Below are positions 30,247-36,146 of a stretch of DNA of 46,528 nt, in pieces (within the stretch, counting starts at the first letter, position 1; each line of letters begins with the position of its first letter). Both the position numbers and the translations under genes were made by a program. The stretch is from positions 1 through 46,528 of the forward strand of contig NZ_QFRU01000032.1 in the NCBI RefSeq assembly GCF_003184905.1, given 5' to 3'. This stretch comes from Bacillus sp. CGMCC 1.16541. Its GTDB lineage: Bacteria > Bacillota > Bacilli > Bacillales > Bacillaceae_H. Below the pieces are notes generated by a model. That model ran no database searches, was not told the origin of the DNA, and was given only the letters and a program-made list of their open reading frames with translations.

Positions 30247-30666
30247 TTACCGGCTGAACTGTTTTCGATAATCACCCGCTTTTGCGAACTCGTCTTCCGT
30301 TCCTACAAAGAAAAATTCAATTGTATAGTTTTTATTTTCATTTCCTTCTGAAGCTCCGTGAATCATTTCACCAGCTTTTAATTTCTTTCGCTCACCTGAT
30401 TGTGTGACATAATAATATTTATTCGTTGCCCACCCTTCATGTGTTAACAACGTTTTTGTTTTCGCTCTTCCTTGGTCATTGATTGAAAACACCGTGTAGT
30501 TTCCTTCTGTTTCCGTTGGTTTACCTTCATCTTTGTCATACTCAACCATGACCCACCCTTTGTATCCATCTGGAATTAAATAAATACTAGGTCTTGCTGT
30601 TTCATCTGACTTACTACACCCAATAATACTTATGAAAACCATGATAAGTAATAGGTATTTACGCAT
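30247..30666 (-). CDS. Lipoprotein of unknown function (139 aa)
   Basis: The signal sequence RKYLLLIMVFISIIGC ends in a lipobox (SIIGC), so the mature protein should be lipid-anchored outside the membrane. The mature part begins SKSDETARPSIYLIPDGYKG, with WVMVEYDKDEGKP and FFFVGTEDEFAKAGDYRKQF. The YLIPDGYKGWV block resembles the DUF6843-type lipoproteins of Bacillaceae. The start at 30666 is chosen because GGAGACGG lies before it. A longer frame is less likely. Single gene. Role unknown. Confidence 0.7.
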   Translation of the reverse strand: MRKYLLLIMVFISIIGCSKSDETARPSIYLIPDGYKGWVMVEYDKDEGKPTETEGNYTVFSINDQGRAKTKTLLTHEGWATNKYYYVTQSGERKKLKAGEMIHGASEGNENKNYTIEFFFVGTEDEFAKAGDYRKQFSR

Positions 30667-30755
30667 ATTCGACCGTCTCCTTTTCACCTTGTTAGTCGTA
30701 GTTTTTCTCCAAGTATCAATTCTATTCGCTGGATCACTAAGCGCTACACAAAGAA

Positions 30756-30791: not shown

Positions 30792-30968
30792 TTACTTATG
30801 CTCATCTAACTTCTTTATGATTCTTTCCTGATTTTCGAGAATTTGCTGTTGTTGTTTTCTTTGTTTACGCTGATTTTTGATAAAAAACAAAATAACGAGA
30901 AAGATTCCAAAAACAGACAAAAGCGTAAACAGTTGAAACAAAAGATCTCCTACATTTAAATTTCCCAC
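30792..30968 (-). CDS. Small single-helix membrane protein (58 aa), last gene of operon
   Basis: A GTG start with TAGGAGG at 7-nt spacing gives VGNLNVGDLL, one hydrophobic helix (FQLFTLLSVFGIFLVILFFI) and a highly charged coiled tail (KNQRKQRKQQQQ, ILENQERIIKKLDEHK). This resembles DUF4083-like tiny membrane proteins. Its ribosome-binding site overlaps the stop codon of the DUF350 gene, so translation is probably coupled, and the operon terminator follows directly. Role unknown. Confidence 0.75.
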   Translation of the reverse strand: MGNLNVGDLLFQLFTLLSVFGIFLVILFFIKNQRKQRKQQQQILENQERIIKKLDEHK

Positions 30969-30979
30969 GTTTTGACCTC

Positions 30980-31396
30980 CTAGTATGTTAAGCTACCTGC
31001 TACAACTAGACCAACGGCAATTGCCGATGCAAACAATGTAAATCCAACGGCGATGTTTCCTTCTTCTACTTTCTCTGAAAGGCTTGTTTTTGGAGTAATG
31101 ATGTATTCAATAATCCAGTACGCAATGACTTGTGTCCCGATTCCAACTACCCCCCAAATTGTGGCATCAATTAAGTTGACACTGTTCCCCCAAACTGTAT
31201 AAATAACAATGGCTAAGCCAATTCCTTTTCCCCATAGCTTTAACGCCACTGCAACATTTCCTTTTTTAATCAGTTCACGCTCATTAAATTTTGTCGTCCA
31301 TTCAAACACAACAATCCCTAAAAATAAAAGCACTAAACCAACTCCAACGTGTGAGAAAAAGTCTAACATGCTACTTCCATCAATAAATTCTGACAT
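30980..31396 (-). CDS. DUF350 membrane protein (YjfL-like)
   Basis: 138 aa with four helices in two DUF350-type repeats: FFSHVGVGLVLLFLGIVVFE, ELIKKGNVAVALKLWGKGIG, then EYIITPKTSLSEKVEEGN and IAVGFTLFASAIAVGLVVAG. The internal repeat (KKGNVAVAL...and EEGNIAVGF...) is the family signature. DUF350 (YjfL) genes are commonly found next to glutathionylspermidine-synthase-like ATP-grasp genes, exactly as here, where it follows that gene by 14 bp. Function unknown. A membrane partner of the enzyme is likely. Confidence 0.88.
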   Translation of the reverse strand: MSEFIDGSSMLDFFSHVGVGLVLLFLGIVVFEWTTKFNERELIKKGNVAVALKLWGKGIGLAIVIYTVWGNSVNLIDATIWGVVGIGTQVIAYWIIEYIITPKTSLSEKVEEGNIAVGFTLFASAIAVGLVVAGSLTY

Positions 31397-31410
31397 CTAC
31401 GTTTCCTCCT

Positions 31411-32682
31411 TTAAAAAGATTGTGATGATTTTTTTATACCTATAGGTAAAAAATAAGATGCATTATCTGTTATTTGGTTCCCTGCACGAACGCCAATTGC
31501 AGAGGCATGACCATTAATTAAAAAGCTACCGTACATAATATGAGCGTTTCTTTTACCTTCTTCTGTTTGAATATCATGAGTAGGGAGTGAAACAAATTGT
31601 TGAAACACAGGTACAGATTCGCGATATGTTTTTTGTTTGTCTTCCTCTATTTTCGCCCCATATCCGTCATAAATTTCAACAGTATCTCCTTCACGTCCAA
31701 ACGCTGGTTTTTTCACAAACGATTGTTTCCTTTTCAAAAATGGTTCGGCGTCTAAGTAGGTTGGCAGAAAATACGTAGATATCCAACCGTGCTCTTCTTC
31801 TGTGAAGTATGGGTGTTTTTCTTCAAACAATCCCCAAATGATAGCTTGCACAGCTTTTGATTGAAGTAAAAAAGCAGATGGCGGATTTAACACAACTACC
31901 TTTTTTTCTTCGACCCACCTCATCAAAAGTTGCCCCACTTTTTCTTTCGATTCTGGGTCTTCATCTTCAACAAGGTGTTCAACTGGATACGTTTGGCGAT
32001 ATAAAACATCGATGCGTTCTCCATCTCTATCATATAACCCTTCTTCTATCATTAATTCCCCATTTTCATAAATGGACTCTGATACAACACGTAATTCATC
32101 AAGCGGAACATATTTTGCTTTTACGCCTGCTATCTTCATTAAATACATAGCGGTCCATTTGTCTTCTTCATGATCTCCATGTGAAGAAAACACCACATTT
32201 GGATAAGAAGATTGATTTAACGTATTGTACGCTTGAAATATAGCATGTTTAAGTGCTTCAGCCAGTCTTTTGTCTTCTTCTTTGTTTGGATCTACAAAAC
32301 CAAAATGGCGAGAGACTTCTCCATTCACATAAAAAGTTTCTTTTATGAACGTAGGCGTATCTGCGTTTAGCTCTAACAGCTTAATCGTTGAATGTTGAAC
32401 AACGAAATCCAACCTAGCAATCACACTTTCCCATTGCAGCGTTTGAAGCCGGATAAACGCGAGGCTTTCTTTTGGAAAACCGAGCGATTGCAGTGTATAA
32501 TCATCAAGTTTGCGAAGAAGATGAGCGGTTTTAAAAAACAAATGCCCCACTCGGTTTGTCGCAAGGCGTATGTGATTGATTACATCACTTGTTTCTTCTT
32601 TTAAATCGTATAACGCATATTCCGTTTCATACAAATTATGCCAAAACTGATCAATACTCTCGTAAAACTGTTGGCGAGACAT
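31411..32682 (-). CDS. Glutathionylspermidine-synthase-like ATP-grasp enzyme (YjfC/YgiC-type)
   Basis: ATP-grasp amide ligase with the GSP_synth fold: HSTIKLLELNADTPTFIKET (substrate/ATP region), VFSSHGDHEEDKWTAMYLMK, VVVLNPPSAFLLQSKAVQA, FVKKPAFGREGDTVEIYDGY (Mg-ATP loop) and GSFLINGHASAIGVRAG near the C-terminus. 423 aa, the short form without the amidase half of E. coli Gss. Such YgiC/YjfC proteins are predicted to form peptide bonds, but the true substrate is unknown. The ATG at 32682 lies 10 nt after GGAGG. A GTG two codons earlier is possible. It is translationally close to the lipoprotein gene before it. Confidence 0.9.
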   Translation of the reverse strand: MSRQQFYESIDQFWHNLYETEYALYDLKEETSDVINHIRLATNRVGHLFFKTAHLLRKLDDYTLQSLGFPKESLAFIRLQTLQWESVIARLDFVVQHSTIKLLELNADTPTFIKETFYVNGEVSRHFGFVDPNKEEDKRLAEALKHAIFQAYNTLNQSSYPNVVFSSHGDHEEDKWTAMYLMKIAGVKAKYVPLDELRVVSESIYENGELMIEEGLYDRDGERIDVLYRQTYPVEHLVEDEDPESKEKVGQLLMRWVEEKKVVVLNPPSAFLLQSKAVQAIIWGLFEEKHPYFTEEEHGWISTYFLPTYLDAEPFLKRKQSFVKKPAFGREGDTVEIYDGYGAKIEEDKQKTYRESVPVFQQFVSLPTHDIQTEEGKRNAHIMYGSFLINGHASAIGVRAGNQITDNASYFLPIGIKKSSQSF

Positions 32683-32688
32683 ACACAC

Positions 32689-33003
32689 TTAGCCTCCAAA
32701 CCCTCCTTTTGTACCACTACCAATTCCTGATTTGTACTGGCTCTGGTAAGATTTAAACGAAGAATCACTTTTCAAGGCACTTTTATTACTAAAATAACGT
32801 CCACCATAAAAGAAATGACCAGCGCGTGTTGAACTACTGTCATCACAATAGTATGTACCTGTTTCTTCATCAAACTTCCACTTGTCGCACTCGTCATCTT
32901 CTGGTTCTTGCGGACGTTCTGCTGTACCAGATCCGCACCCTACTAAAGAAGTCGCCATAATGGCTGCTAATACACCCGTCATCATTTTTTTCGTATGATT
33001 CAT
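32689..33003 (-). CDS. Lipoprotein with Ser/Gly-rich tail (YgiB/YjfM-like position)
   Basis: The signal MTGVLAAIMATSLVGC has a canonical lipobox (SLVGC). The mature part is acidic with a possible disulfide pair (DDECDKWKFDEETGTYYCDD), followed by FFYGGRYFSNKSALKSDSSF and a C-terminal SGIGSGTKGGFGG. A Ser/Gly-rich, GFGG-ending small exported protein directly before the ATP-grasp gene parallels E. coli YgiB/YjfM (DUF1190) next to YgiC/YjfC. Homology is suspected from layout, not proven. The tail may be a substrate for the ligase. Confidence 0.7.
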   Translation of the reverse strand: MNHTKKMMTGVLAAIMATSLVGCGSGTAERPQEPEDDECDKWKFDEETGTYYCDDSSSTRAGHFFYGGRYFSNKSALKSDSSFKSYQSQYKSGIGSGTKGGFGG

Positions 33004-33015
33004 GTTTCTCCCTCC

Positions 33016-33480
33016 TTACTGATCAAACGTAAAACCTGTTTCTGTCACATACAACACATACACTCTTCGATCTTCATCCATTTCTGCTGAATCTCGTTCC
33101 CATTCTTTCCGATTGACATATGTATAGACCGCACCAATGAAAGATAGAACCTCAAGGTGGGTACGCATGTATTTTGTCGTCAACGCAGGGTGGTCTTTTC
33201 GTGTGTTTAACTCTCTTACTTCTACTTTAATGGAATGATGGCTTTCTGGATCTTCCTCTTCTTTTGGACTATGTTCATACTCATCCACATAAATAATATG
33301 CAAGTTCTCTTCAATCGCAGACGAGCGTTGTTTATATGTCACGCCTTCTTTTACATAAAACTCACACTCTCGTCTTGCTAAGATTTGCTCAAGCTCAATG
33401 TGTTCGTAATGATAAAGAGGTACATACTCATCATTGCCTTTTAACAGCCGATATTCAAGGACTAATTGACTCGTTTCCAT
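33016..33480 (-). CDS. Unknown soluble acidic protein (154 aa), first gene of the operon
   Basis: METSQLVLEYRLLKGNDEYV is followed by a hydrophilic, Glu/Asp-rich sequence (EYEHSPKEEEDPESHHSIKV, EVRELNTRKDHPALTTKYMR) and ends YVLYVTETGFTFDQ. No signal, membrane helix or known motif is seen. It starts after AAGGAGAGTAGGAG and ends 12 bp before the lipoprotein gene, so it belongs to the same transcript. In position it is comparable to the YjfI/YjfK cytoplasmic proteins of the E. coli yjf operon, but I see no sequence evidence of homology. Confidence 0.6.
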   Translation of the reverse strand: METSQLVLEYRLLKGNDEYVPLYHYEHIELEQILARRECEFYVKEGVTYKQRSSAIEENLHIIYVDEYEHSPKEEEDPESHHSIKVEVRELNTRKDHPALTTKYMRTHLEVLSFIGAVYTYVNRKEWERDSAEMDEDRRVYVLYVTETGFTFDQ

Positions 33481-33617: not shown

Positions 33618-36146
33618 TTATTTGATTGTCACCGTTACAGGTGTAATGTCTAATGACACATTCACAAACGAATAGTCATCTTTTTGACCATCTGTGTATG
33701 CCCAATACCCATTTGTTTCGTCCGTTTTTCTAAATACAAGTTTAAATCCTTTTCCATCATTAAAGCTATAACTCTCGACTTGCTCTTCCCCTTCATTATC
33801 AACAAGGTTATACGCTAAAAACTTGTTTAATAAACCATGTCCGCTTAAGACACCTGAATGAGGTGGCACTTTTGAATTTCCATATTCGTATCCTTTTGTT
33901 TCTACTTTTTTGCTGTTAATCGTGGTTTCTTTTGTTTTAAAGTTAAACTCGTCACCCTGTGTAATCCATGATAATCCAATGTTTTTATACTCACTTTGTC
34001 CAAGTGTTTCGTCGTTTGATTGTTTCGATAAATCAACGAGTGTCACGCCACCACGGCCAACGACTTCCACTTTGTTTTGTTCATTGTACACGACCATTGC
34101 GGTATCTTCATCAATTCCGTAGGAAAGCTCATGGATGTCTCCATGCTCTTTTGTAACGGCTACTAAGCGACCAAGACGCGCTTTGTTGTCGAAATGTTGA
34201 TCGATAATACCATGCTCAAAAAAACCTAAACCTCTCTCTAAATACCCAGGACCGCCTTCTTGTTGCAACATCCCGTCATATGTTTCAGTGAAGCCAGAAG
34301 CAAGTGTATCAAAGCTACCTCCACCCGCTATCATCACATCACTCATAATCGCTGCACCGGCACTCGTTCCACCTAGAACCGCACCATCACGGTACATGTC
34401 CCAAATCGCATTTAACACGTGAGAGTTTGATCCGTCTTCATTTAAAAGAGATGCGGTAATCTTTGTTTGATCGCCACCAACAAACCAAATGCCATCTAAC
34501 TCTCTCACTTTGTTGGCAAGCTCTTCATTGTTTTTGTTGTCGATCCATTTCGATTCATCTTCAGCTGTTCCTTTGTAGTTAGTGACAGACAATGGTAAAA
34601 TGTCGATGTTTTCTACTTTCATTCCATATTTCACAAGGTCTTTTTTAAATGACTCAGACGATTTTAAGCTTGAGCTTGCGGCTGGAATGATTCCAATCTT
34701 AGAGTCTTTTTTCTGTTTCGATAAGTCAATGAACTTTTCATAAAGAGCTGCATTACTACTTCCAACTGCTCCTCCTGCAATGACTAAGTTTCCTTTTACA
34801 GGCTTTTCACGGTCAATCGTAGGAAGCTTGAAGGTAGATGGTTTGTAATCTGAGAATAAATCGTTTTCTTCCTTAAATGAAACGGTTTTCGGCTCTACAT
34901 CCATGGCTACATTCACAAATGAATAATCGTCTTTTTGACCATCTTTGTAACCCCAATAGCCTTTTGTTTTATCTGTTTTTCTAAAAGTCAGCTGAAATCC
35001 TTTGCCTTTACTATCATATAAGTAACTTTTTACTTCGGTTTCTTTATTGTCCACTAAAGAATAGGAAAGATATTCTTTTAAACGACCATAAGAAGTGAAA
35101 ACACCTGTAGCCTCTAATGGCTGAAATTCATAATATTCATAGCCATTCGTTTCATCTTTATGATCACTAATGGTAAACTCTTTTGTTTGTACATTTAATT
35201 CGTCTCCTTCAACAAGGTGACTGATGTACACATCTTTCAAGTTTGCTTTTCCTGCTTTTACTCGTTTTGCTTGACTTACATCCACAATTGATACACCGCT
35301 TCGACCAACAACTTTCACTTTCTTTTCTTTGTTGTTCACAACGAGCGCTGTATCTTCATCAACACCATATGCAAAGTTCTGTTGACTTGCTTTTGGTTGC
35401 TTCAATGCGGTCATCACTAAACGACCTAAACGAGCTCTCTCATCAAAATGCTGATCGACAATCCCATATGGAAAGAACCCTAACCCTTTTTCAAGATAAA
35501 CAGGCGCATATTCATCACTAGATCCTGCAACATCTTCGTAAACGAATTTATTATTTAAACCACCTAAGCTATCTCCACCTGTTATCATTACGTCACTCAT
35601 GACCGCAGCTCCAGCACTTGTTCCTCCAATAACCCCACCATTTCGGTACATCTCCCAAATGGCTTTTAGAACGACGGTTTGCTTTCCATTTCTTTGAATC
35701 AATGTATCTGTAATACGCAATTGATCTCCACCAACAAACCAAATTGCACTAAGTCCTTTTACTTGTGCTGCAAGTTTCGGACTGTACGCATTCATTTTCC
35801 ATGTGGATTCATCTTTTTCGGTTCCTGAAAAATTACGATTAGCAAGTGGCAAGATCTGAATTTGCTTTTCTGTTAATCCATAAGACAGTAAATCTTTTTT
35901 GAAATCTTCTGATGACTTTAACGAACTACTGGCTGCTGGAATAATTCCCACTTTTGCTTTTTCTTTCCCGCCTGCTAGTTTAATAAATTCTTCATAAACA
36001 GCTTTGTTACTACTACCTAATGCTCCTCCTGCGATAACGAGATTACCTTTAATCTCTTCTTCCTTCTTTTTCGCTTGTCCGATAGACGGAAACCATAGCG
36101 TACTGACTAATACAAATGCTACCAACATTGTGATCCATTTTTTCAC
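33618..36146 (-). CDS. Secreted tandem (double-domain) cyanophycinase, peptidase family S51
   Basis: Signal peptide (residues 1-25, ending SIGQA). Domain 1 (about 33-425) and domain 2 (about 450-842) are full repeats. Each has GNLVIAGGA, VGIIPAASSSLKSS or its equivalent, IWFVGGDQ, the nucleophile Ser in GGTSAGAA, YGIVDQHFD or HGIIDQHFD, and an end block GYWGYKDGQKDDYSFVNVA or its copy. S51 cyanophycinases hydrolyse multi-L-arginyl-poly-L-aspartate to beta-Asp-Arg. Both active sites look intact, and each repeat has a long C-terminal beta extension not needed for catalysis. Usual cyanophycinases have one domain (about 270-300 aa or longer when secreted). No cyanophycin synthetase gene is present. 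Confidence 0.88.
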   Translation of the reverse strand: MKKWITMLVAFVLVSTLWFPSIGQAKKKEEEIKGNLVIAGGALGSSNKAVYEEFIKLAGGKEKAKVGIIPAASSSLKSSEDFKKDLLSYGLTEKQIQILPLANRNFSGTEKDESTWKMNAYSPKLAAQVKGLSAIWFVGGDQLRITDTLIQRNGKQTVVLKAIWEMYRNGGVIGGTSAGAAVMSDVMITGGDSLGGLNNKFVYEDVAGSSDEYAPVYLEKGLGFFPYGIVDQHFDERARLGRLVMTALKQPKASQQNFAYGVDEDTALVVNNKEKKVKVVGRSGVSIVDVSQAKRVKAGKANLKDVYISHLVEGDELNVQTKEFTISDHKDETNGYEYYEFQPLEATGVFTSYGRLKEYLSYSLVDNKETEVKSYLYDSKGKGFQLTFRKTDKTKGYWGYKDGQKDDYSFVNVAMDVEPKTVSFKEENDLFSDYKPSTFKLPTIDREKPVKGNLVIAGGAVGSSNAALYEKFIDLSKQKKDSKIGIIPAASSSLKSSESFKKDLVKYGMKVENIDILPLSVTNYKGTAEDESKWIDNKNNEELANKVRELDGIWFVGGDQTKITASLLNEDGSNSHVLNAIWDMYRDGAVLGGTSAGAAIMSDVMIAGGGSFDTLASGFTETYDGMLQQEGGPGYLERGLGFFEHGIIDQHFDNKARLGRLVAVTKEHGDIHELSYGIDEDTAMVVYNEQNKVEVVGRGGVTLVDLSKQSNDETLGQSEYKNIGLSWITQGDEFNFKTKETTINSKKVETKGYEYGNSKVPPHSGVLSGHGLLNKFLAYNLVDNEGEEQVESYSFNDGKGFKLVFRKTDETNGYWAYTDGQKDDYSFVNVSLDITPVTVTIK

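Follow-up and report, generated by a model that had tools for sequence, protein, structure and literature searches.

Five minus-strand genes in a Bacillus genome raise the question of why a relative of glutathionylspermidine synthase should be encoded directly behind a lipoprotein whose Ser/Gly-rich tail ends in Gly-Gly (GG). The genes, here called P1 to P5 in the order of transcription, lie in a stretch of 46,528 nucleotides from Bacillus sp. CGMCC 1.16541 (contig NZ_QFRU01000032.1, assembly GCF_003184905.1), the whole of which we refer to as the window. P3 is the ligase and P2 the tailed lipoprotein; the other genes encode a putative cytosolic protein (P1), a DUF350 membrane protein (P4) and a small protein with one hydrophobic stretch (P5) (Table 1). 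From comparison of these sequences with bacterial and phage relatives, we consider it fairly probable that the operon is an envelope-stress-type module in which P3 joins a polyamine to the C-terminal tail of P2 before export.

P3 matched the Pfam family GSP_synth (PF03738, E 1.4e-57); apart from one sub-threshold ATP-grasp match Pfam returned nothing else for it, and no amidase domain. Among PDB sequences, P3 was closer to Escherichia coli YjfC and YgiC (7uk6, 7uk8; E 5.2e-12 to YjfC and 3.7e-9 to YgiC) than to trypanothione synthetase. Because overall identity is low (23-25% to YjfC/YgiC, and 20% to the E. coli glutathionylspermidine synthase, GspS), individual residues carry the subfamily argument. 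In an alignment that contains GspS from E. coli only, GspS residues R316, D318, E330, N332, K498, K533, R538 and R598, which we take to function in catalysis and glutathione binding, are all kept in P3. In contrast, the substitutions S335T, A336P, E392D and C539E relative to GspS are common to P3, YjfC and YgiC. Thus, three features of the YgiC/YjfC subfamily are present: the GSP_synth domain with its catalytic residues, the T/P/D/E substitutions, and an adjacent exported protein with a GG tail. By these features, we place P3 in the YgiC/YjfC subfamily rather than with glutathionylspermidine synthase. E. coli YgiC and YjfC are annotated as peptide--spermidine ligases and are also called acid-amine ligases; to our knowledge, their natural substrate is unsettled despite the reported activity.

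The tail of P2 has the core SGIGSG and the end GFGG, and P2 as a whole matched no Pfam family at E<=1, DUF1190 included. To place this tail among its relatives, we used 142 ligase loci, which collapsed at 80% ligase identity to 115 (113 of them in the ligase tree). When the upstream partner was defined as the nearest same-strand upstream gene with a product of 70 aa or more, P1, P3 and P4 excepted, it ended in GG in 68 of 108 collapsed loci, compared with 7 of 1457 other genes. Similarly, a composition filter found a Ser/Gly-tailed neighbour in 104 of the 115 loci. The exact GG end was present in 77 of these 104 neighbours (shuffle mean 6.7, maximum 18 in 2000 shuffles), and the core [GS]G[FIYVLM]G in 83 (shuffle mean 17, maximum 29 in 500). 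These counts retain a doubtful open reading frame (ORF) that was picked automatically in at least L068, L072, L077, L109 and L140, and by eye five of the 11 loci that failed the filter have a GG-ending neighbour (L041, L062, L071, L154, L160).

Core tails were found in Bacillota, Pseudomonadota, Bacteroidota, Ignavibacteriota, Myxococcota and Actinomycetota; Campylobacterota carry an FFG variant, and in several clades the tail finishes with Ser or another small residue. E. coli YjfM ends in SRGGYGRSSSARGHWGG, and YgiB carries RGGFG near its end and the terminus SRSMGG; we checked ten genes near the lone gene for GspS in E. coli, and none has a GG end. After removal of the tails, matches between the bodies of the main groups of tailed proteins were weak or absent (hhalign probability 0.6 to 28.7), and the match between P2 and DUF1190 bodies was likewise weak (28.7). 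Together, these results suggest that the tail is the link between ligase partners whose bodies are weakly alike or not alike.

A relative of P3 occurs in 123 of 299 Bacilli genomes; a laboratory Bacillus subtilis strain, whose genome served as a control, had no GSP_synth match. We fetched 60 neighbourhoods, from 59 of these 123 genomes, and found by profile search P1 in 45, P2 in 51 and P4 in 47; in 82 further loci (80 from named genomes or metagenome-assembled genomes (MAGs), and two from E. coli) the numbers were 33, 39 and 63, the P2 counts being soft in both sets, as the P2 profile is of low complexity. P1 to P4 are therefore a set that recurs in Bacilli more than expected by chance. The sequence-only reading, an earlier annotation made from the letters of the window, had taken all five genes for one functional set; rare co-occurrence, which would have spoken against it, was not seen for four of the five. 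It had also held that the first and last genes are without known equivalents. For the last this stands as far as we searched: phmmer found no homologue of P5 in either the 60 or the 82 loci, and because of this the unit appears to consist of four recurring genes and one that is apparently lineage-specific.

For the first gene, that claim has to be amended. P1 is present in 104 of the 299 Bacilli genomes, all 104 of which have P3, and in 0 of 176 genomes that lack P3. In the 20 of the 104 genomes that were checked by coordinates, P1 was within 2 kb of P3 every time; its orientation is divergent in many species, yet it still lies beside the set. The family does remain unnamed: P1 matched no Pfam family at E<=1, and among 29 family members each Pfam or NCBIfam match was confined to one member, with E no better than 0.018, which is chance level. 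An AlphaFold2 model of P1 (predicted local distance difference test score 93.6) shows two EEHEEE repeats, whose sequence halves align to each other (hhalign probability 97.4, E 1.1e-11). By the genomic counts, P1 is an obligate ligase partner from an unnamed family.

The ligase and its tailed neighbour also recur in phages. P3 and P4 match the phage families phrog_6215 and phrog_29907, and a scan of viral contigs, which may include misassigned bacterial sequence, yielded 68 ligase loci, 58 of them non-redundant by ligase sequence. In 50 of the 58, a core-tailed neighbour with a hydrophobic N-terminus was encoded on the same strand within 2.5 kb; such a neighbour was on the opposite strand in three loci and farther out in none. 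A GG end was present in 23 of the 50 tails, and DUF350 in 21 of the 58 loci. When gene calls were fixed and the motif was made stricter, the count fell but the location held: tailed genes were 29 of the 149 at -1 to -3, compared with 1 of 492 beyond +-4. Twelve named phages, our own pick from 135 records matching YjfC and 46 matching P3 (long 'Salmonella' records that look bacterial were excluded), gave the same picture: a Ser/Gly-tailed lipoprotein lies one to three genes upstream of the ligase in 11 of the 12, with eight ending in GG and eight carrying the core motif. Bacillus phages PJN02 and FADO have the Firmicute-type pair with the end SSGFGG, although their lipoproteins are identical and thus not independent. 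Phage Motura encodes, in order, a homospermidine synthase, the tailed lipoprotein, the ligase, one small gene and DUF350.

Polyamine supply is consistent with this picture. S-adenosylmethionine decarboxylase (AdoMetDC) was found in 113 of the 123 ligase genomes but in 112 of the 176 genomes without the ligase, and in the window's genome AdoMetDC and spermidine synthase each have strong matches.

From these data, we infer the following mechanism. Using ATP, P3 would phosphorylate the C-terminal carboxylate of the P2 tail, and the acyl-phosphate thus activated would be joined to a primary amine of a polyamine, most likely spermidine, in a reaction modelled on that of glutathionylspermidine synthase at the terminal glycine of glutathione. 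ATP-dependent ligation is suggested by the family of P3, and the tail is proposed as the substrate because it is conserved. The modification would take place in the cytosol, ahead of Sec export, after which P2, anchored by its lipid, would carry a cationic tip. The membrane partners may be P4 and, in other lineages, a K+ channel; P1 may be a helper in the cytosol that is dedicated to the system, possibly as a regulator or as a carrier of the substrate. As guesses, the tip could bind anionic wall or lipid, or act on an ion channel. An envelope-stress role would fit since an extracytoplasmic function (ECF)-sigma-like site precedes P1 and relatives are linked to PspA, although both indications are indirect. 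Attachment of a polyamine to the Gly-rich tail by the ligase was among the ideas of the sequence-only reading, and the tail and phage counts lend it strong comparative support. A far broader picture, which we regard as distinctly unlikely in its entirety, is that bacteria and many phages share a dedicated system of C-terminal polyamination. In it, the Gly-Gly terminus of a surface lipoprotein would be converted by a single ATP-grasp enzyme to a polyamine tip, and this tip, tethered by its flexible tail, would serve a partner ion channel or DUF350 protein as a cationic plug or sensor during envelope stress; phages would import the set, once with their own homospermidine synthase, and so adjust the envelope of the infected cell.

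Several observations weigh against tail polyamination as we propose it. Among the 104 bacterial tails, 27 lack the GG end, 21 of these having a last residue other than Gly, and a lipobox-like sequence, by a rule of our own, is present in just 72 of the tailed neighbours; 27 of the 50 viral tails are likewise not GG, all of these ending in S, A or E, and four in GE. Phage DSS3_VP1 has the ligase with no tailed gene among the two read upstream. Compartments are a further difficulty: the ligase is presumed to be cytosolic (E. coli YgiC is listed as cytoplasmic in PMC4858940) and the lipoprotein end is outside, and the modification must therefore precede export. AdoMetDC is common without the ligase, as the counts above show, and ten of the 123 ligase genomes lack it, Spermine_synth being absent in three of these and weak in seven; polyamine uptake or another amine must therefore be allowed. 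DUF350 is also common without the ligase, occurring in 191 of the 299 genomes, and the ECF-like site was found in just 8 of 100 operons. Finally, a K+ channel gene, on either strand, is present in only 23 of the 115 loci, which rules it out as a constant partner.

The codons of the tail bear on another account, in which the terminal GG would be a by-product of the next gene's Shine-Dalgarno sequence (GGAGG) in tight operons and would have no role at the protein end. P2 of the window does end GGA GGC TAA just before P3, so that its last GGAGG serves both purposes, and 34 of the 77 GG ends are GGAGG, compared with a GGA share of 28% among the other tail Gly codons; both facts also count against tail polyamination. 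However, 43 of the 77 ends are not GGAGG, many starts overlap the stop and leave no spacing, the next start is 13-73 nt off in P2-P4 loci, of 331 other genes followed by a start at -30 to +20 nt only 4 have a GG end, and the core GG[FIY]G motif is left unexplained. On these codon and spacing counts we mostly rejected a Shine-Dalgarno origin; it would explain part of the GG ends at most, and as a full account it is highly improbable. We also consider it very unlikely that the tail works as a sorting signal or flexible linker, with common regulation alone holding the gene pair together: this would fit tails that are Ser/Gly-rich and end in GG only in part, but the position-specific GG and core motif exceed the composition shuffles, and ligase and lipoprotein travel together in phages.

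Two further accounts concern what the ligase makes. The enzyme could conjugate a polyamine to a small molecule or a free peptide, giving glutathionylspermidine or another peptidyl-polyamine, for instance, with the lipoprotein a separate envelope partner. The family is named for such an activity, and the hss-gss clusters of Motura and beta-proteobacteria have been read as potential glutathionylhomospermidine formation (PMC9992855). We nevertheless find this account unlikely: GspS residues S335, E392 and C539 differ in P3, YjfC and YgiC, YgiC is stated to lack Gsp's activity (PMC12506659), P3 has no amidase domain, and an extreme C-terminal tail kept on weakly related bodies would have no explanation. 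Alternatively, the ligase could attach something other than a polyamine, such as an amino acid, an amino lipid or a wall amine, to the tail. The ten ligase genomes that lack both AdoMetDC and a strong Spermine_synth match, together with the name acid-amine ligase, speak for this possibility; the homospermidine synthase beside the phage pair, the peptide-spermidine activity of YgiC/YjfC cited in later papers, including PMC12270671, and the AdoMetDC enrichment in ligase genomes make it unlikely too.

Several known systems resemble the operon in part. In E. coli ygiBC and yjfIJKLMC, a YgiC/YjfC-type ligase adjoins an exported GG-tailed protein, and yjf includes DUF350; the window differs in adding P1 and P5, in a P2 that is not DUF1190 by Pfam, and in the absence of yjfIJK-type genes (DUF2170, PspA, DUF2491). 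The sequence-only reading had drawn this comparison, correctly for the ligase (a YgiC/YjfC type by its residues) and for P4 (Pfam DUF350, E 5.3e-37, over the cut-off); P2, in contrast, shares only the tail with YjfM/YgiB and by sequence is outside their family. The third operon group of Ravi et al. 2024 (PMC11237479) already has associations of the ligase, DUF350, DUF1190 and K+ channel in print. Likeness to the window extends to the ATP-grasp ligase, DUF350 and lipoprotein, with a K+ channel in some relatives; unlike that group, the window's operon has no K+ channel, and section 19 of the paper contains neither P1 nor the C-terminal tail. A CesT/Tir-PspA dyad, which is missing in some lineages of the group even though relatives show PspA links (PMC11237479), was not found by Pfam among the five operon genes and four neighbours. 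E. coli gss, which encodes glutathionylspermidine synthase/amidase, shares the family and catalytic residues with P3; P3 differs in its substrate-site substitutions, the lack of an amidase domain and the partner protein beside it. SUMO/ubiquitin-spermidine conjugation likewise combines a terminal GG carboxylate, spermidine and ATP, with a printed spermidine mass value of +127.147 Da (PMC12270671), but uses eukaryotic E1/E2 enzymes, whereas our proposal involves a single ATP-grasp enzyme and an exported lipoprotein. A BaeR regulon table lists the tolC-ygiA-ygiB-ygiC operon with a fold change for tolC alone (PMC2731931), and thus gives no support.

Within the literature searched, three points are new: that P1 is an obligate partner, that a shared C-terminal tail links partners that are otherwise not alike, and that this tail recurs in phages. 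We found no description there of the tail as a ligase substrate, although coverage was incomplete and an earlier description is possible. The conserved tail of the neighbouring lipoprotein offers a specific candidate substrate for YgiC/YjfC and, if the proposal is true, bacteria would have a C-terminal protein-polyamine modification, common to phages, that ties polyamines to the envelope.

An ORF check of the window found all five genes at the positions in Table 1, and the compact operon described in the sequence-only reading was confirmed, with gaps of 12, 6, 14 and 11 bp; the P2-P3 gap is 6 bp to the ATG at 32682 and 0 to the GTG at 32688.

Table 1. Operon genes and flanking signals, in window coordinates.
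Feature	Position	Strand	Description
P1	33016..33480	-	154 aa; predicted cytosolic; unnamed family; two tandem EEHEEE repeats
P2	32689..33003	-	104 aa; lipobox LVGC, Ser-rich linker, C-terminus GFGG; proposed ligase substrate
P2 tail codons SGIGSGTKGGFGG	32692..32730	-	conserved C-terminal tail; last GGAGG also the probable Shine-Dalgarno sequence of P3
P3	31411..32688	-	425 aa; GSP_synth ATP-grasp amide ligase, YgiC/YjfC-like
P4	30980..31396	-	138 aa; DUF350 (YjfL family) membrane protein, Pfam PF03994
P5	30792..30968	-	58 aa; one hydrophobic stretch; strong Shine-Dalgarno sequence AGGAGG
ECF-sigma-like site TGGAAC-N17-CGTA, before P1	33516..33542	-	pattern scan of operon upstreams
Terminator-like hairpin between upstream gene and P1	33568..33614	-	fold z -7.0 vs shuffles; missed by consensus scan
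Terminator-like hairpin 3' of P5	30754..30789	-	fold z -4.5 vs shuffles; consensus scan

Because terminator-like hairpins lie on both sides and an ECF-sigma-like site precedes P1, P1 to P5 are likely to form one transcription unit. The general pattern TGNAAC-N15..18-CGTM occurred in 8 of 100 related operon upstreams but in 5 of 829 other genes of the same loci (Fisher 1.1e-5; loci L031-L152, mostly Bacillota). Between 30200 and 33700, the consensus terminator scan gave 1 site against 2.2 expected, which is below chance, and the sigma-70-like consensus scan gave 6 against 10.1 expected, none of them directly before P1; by itself the consensus scanning is no evidence. P5 had sub-threshold or weak matches to BhlA holin, YajC and PspB in Pfam/NCBIfam and to two PHROGs of unknown function. 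Among PADLOC defence families, P1 to P4 had no match at E<=0.01 and P5 a weak one to LeoA (0.0015); by PADLOC families, the operon is not assigned to anti-phage defence.

Some loci depart from the usual arrangement. Paenibacillus and its relatives carry a divergent version of the operon in most of L083, L084, L086-L089, L124, L129, L131-L134, L136-L139 and L141-L152: an exported protein without a lipobox and mostly with a GG end is followed by the ligase, often a second unnamed lipoprotein, DUF350 and often a K+ channel. AdoMetDC is missing in five of these genomes (L083, L084, L086-L088) and present in that of L089. For this second lipoprotein, encoded between P3 and P4 in some Paenibacillus, we considered DUF4247 and rejected it, as there was no Pfam match at E<=0.01. 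In L041 and L109, one DUF350 gene lies between two different GSP_synth ligases, followed in L109 by a K+ channel. In phages LAh_8 (L252) and DSS3_VP1 (L251), a gene for an ion channel adjoins the pair or the ligase. The ligase on a 'Variovorax' MAG contig (L169) groups with Modestobacter, and the contig is possibly misbinned.

Directly upstream of the operon, 33618-36146 encodes a protein of 842 aa that has two peptidase S51/cyanophycinase stretches and is signal-like at its N-terminus. Just past the downstream hairpin, 30247-30687 encodes a DUF6843 protein with a lipobox-like N-terminus.

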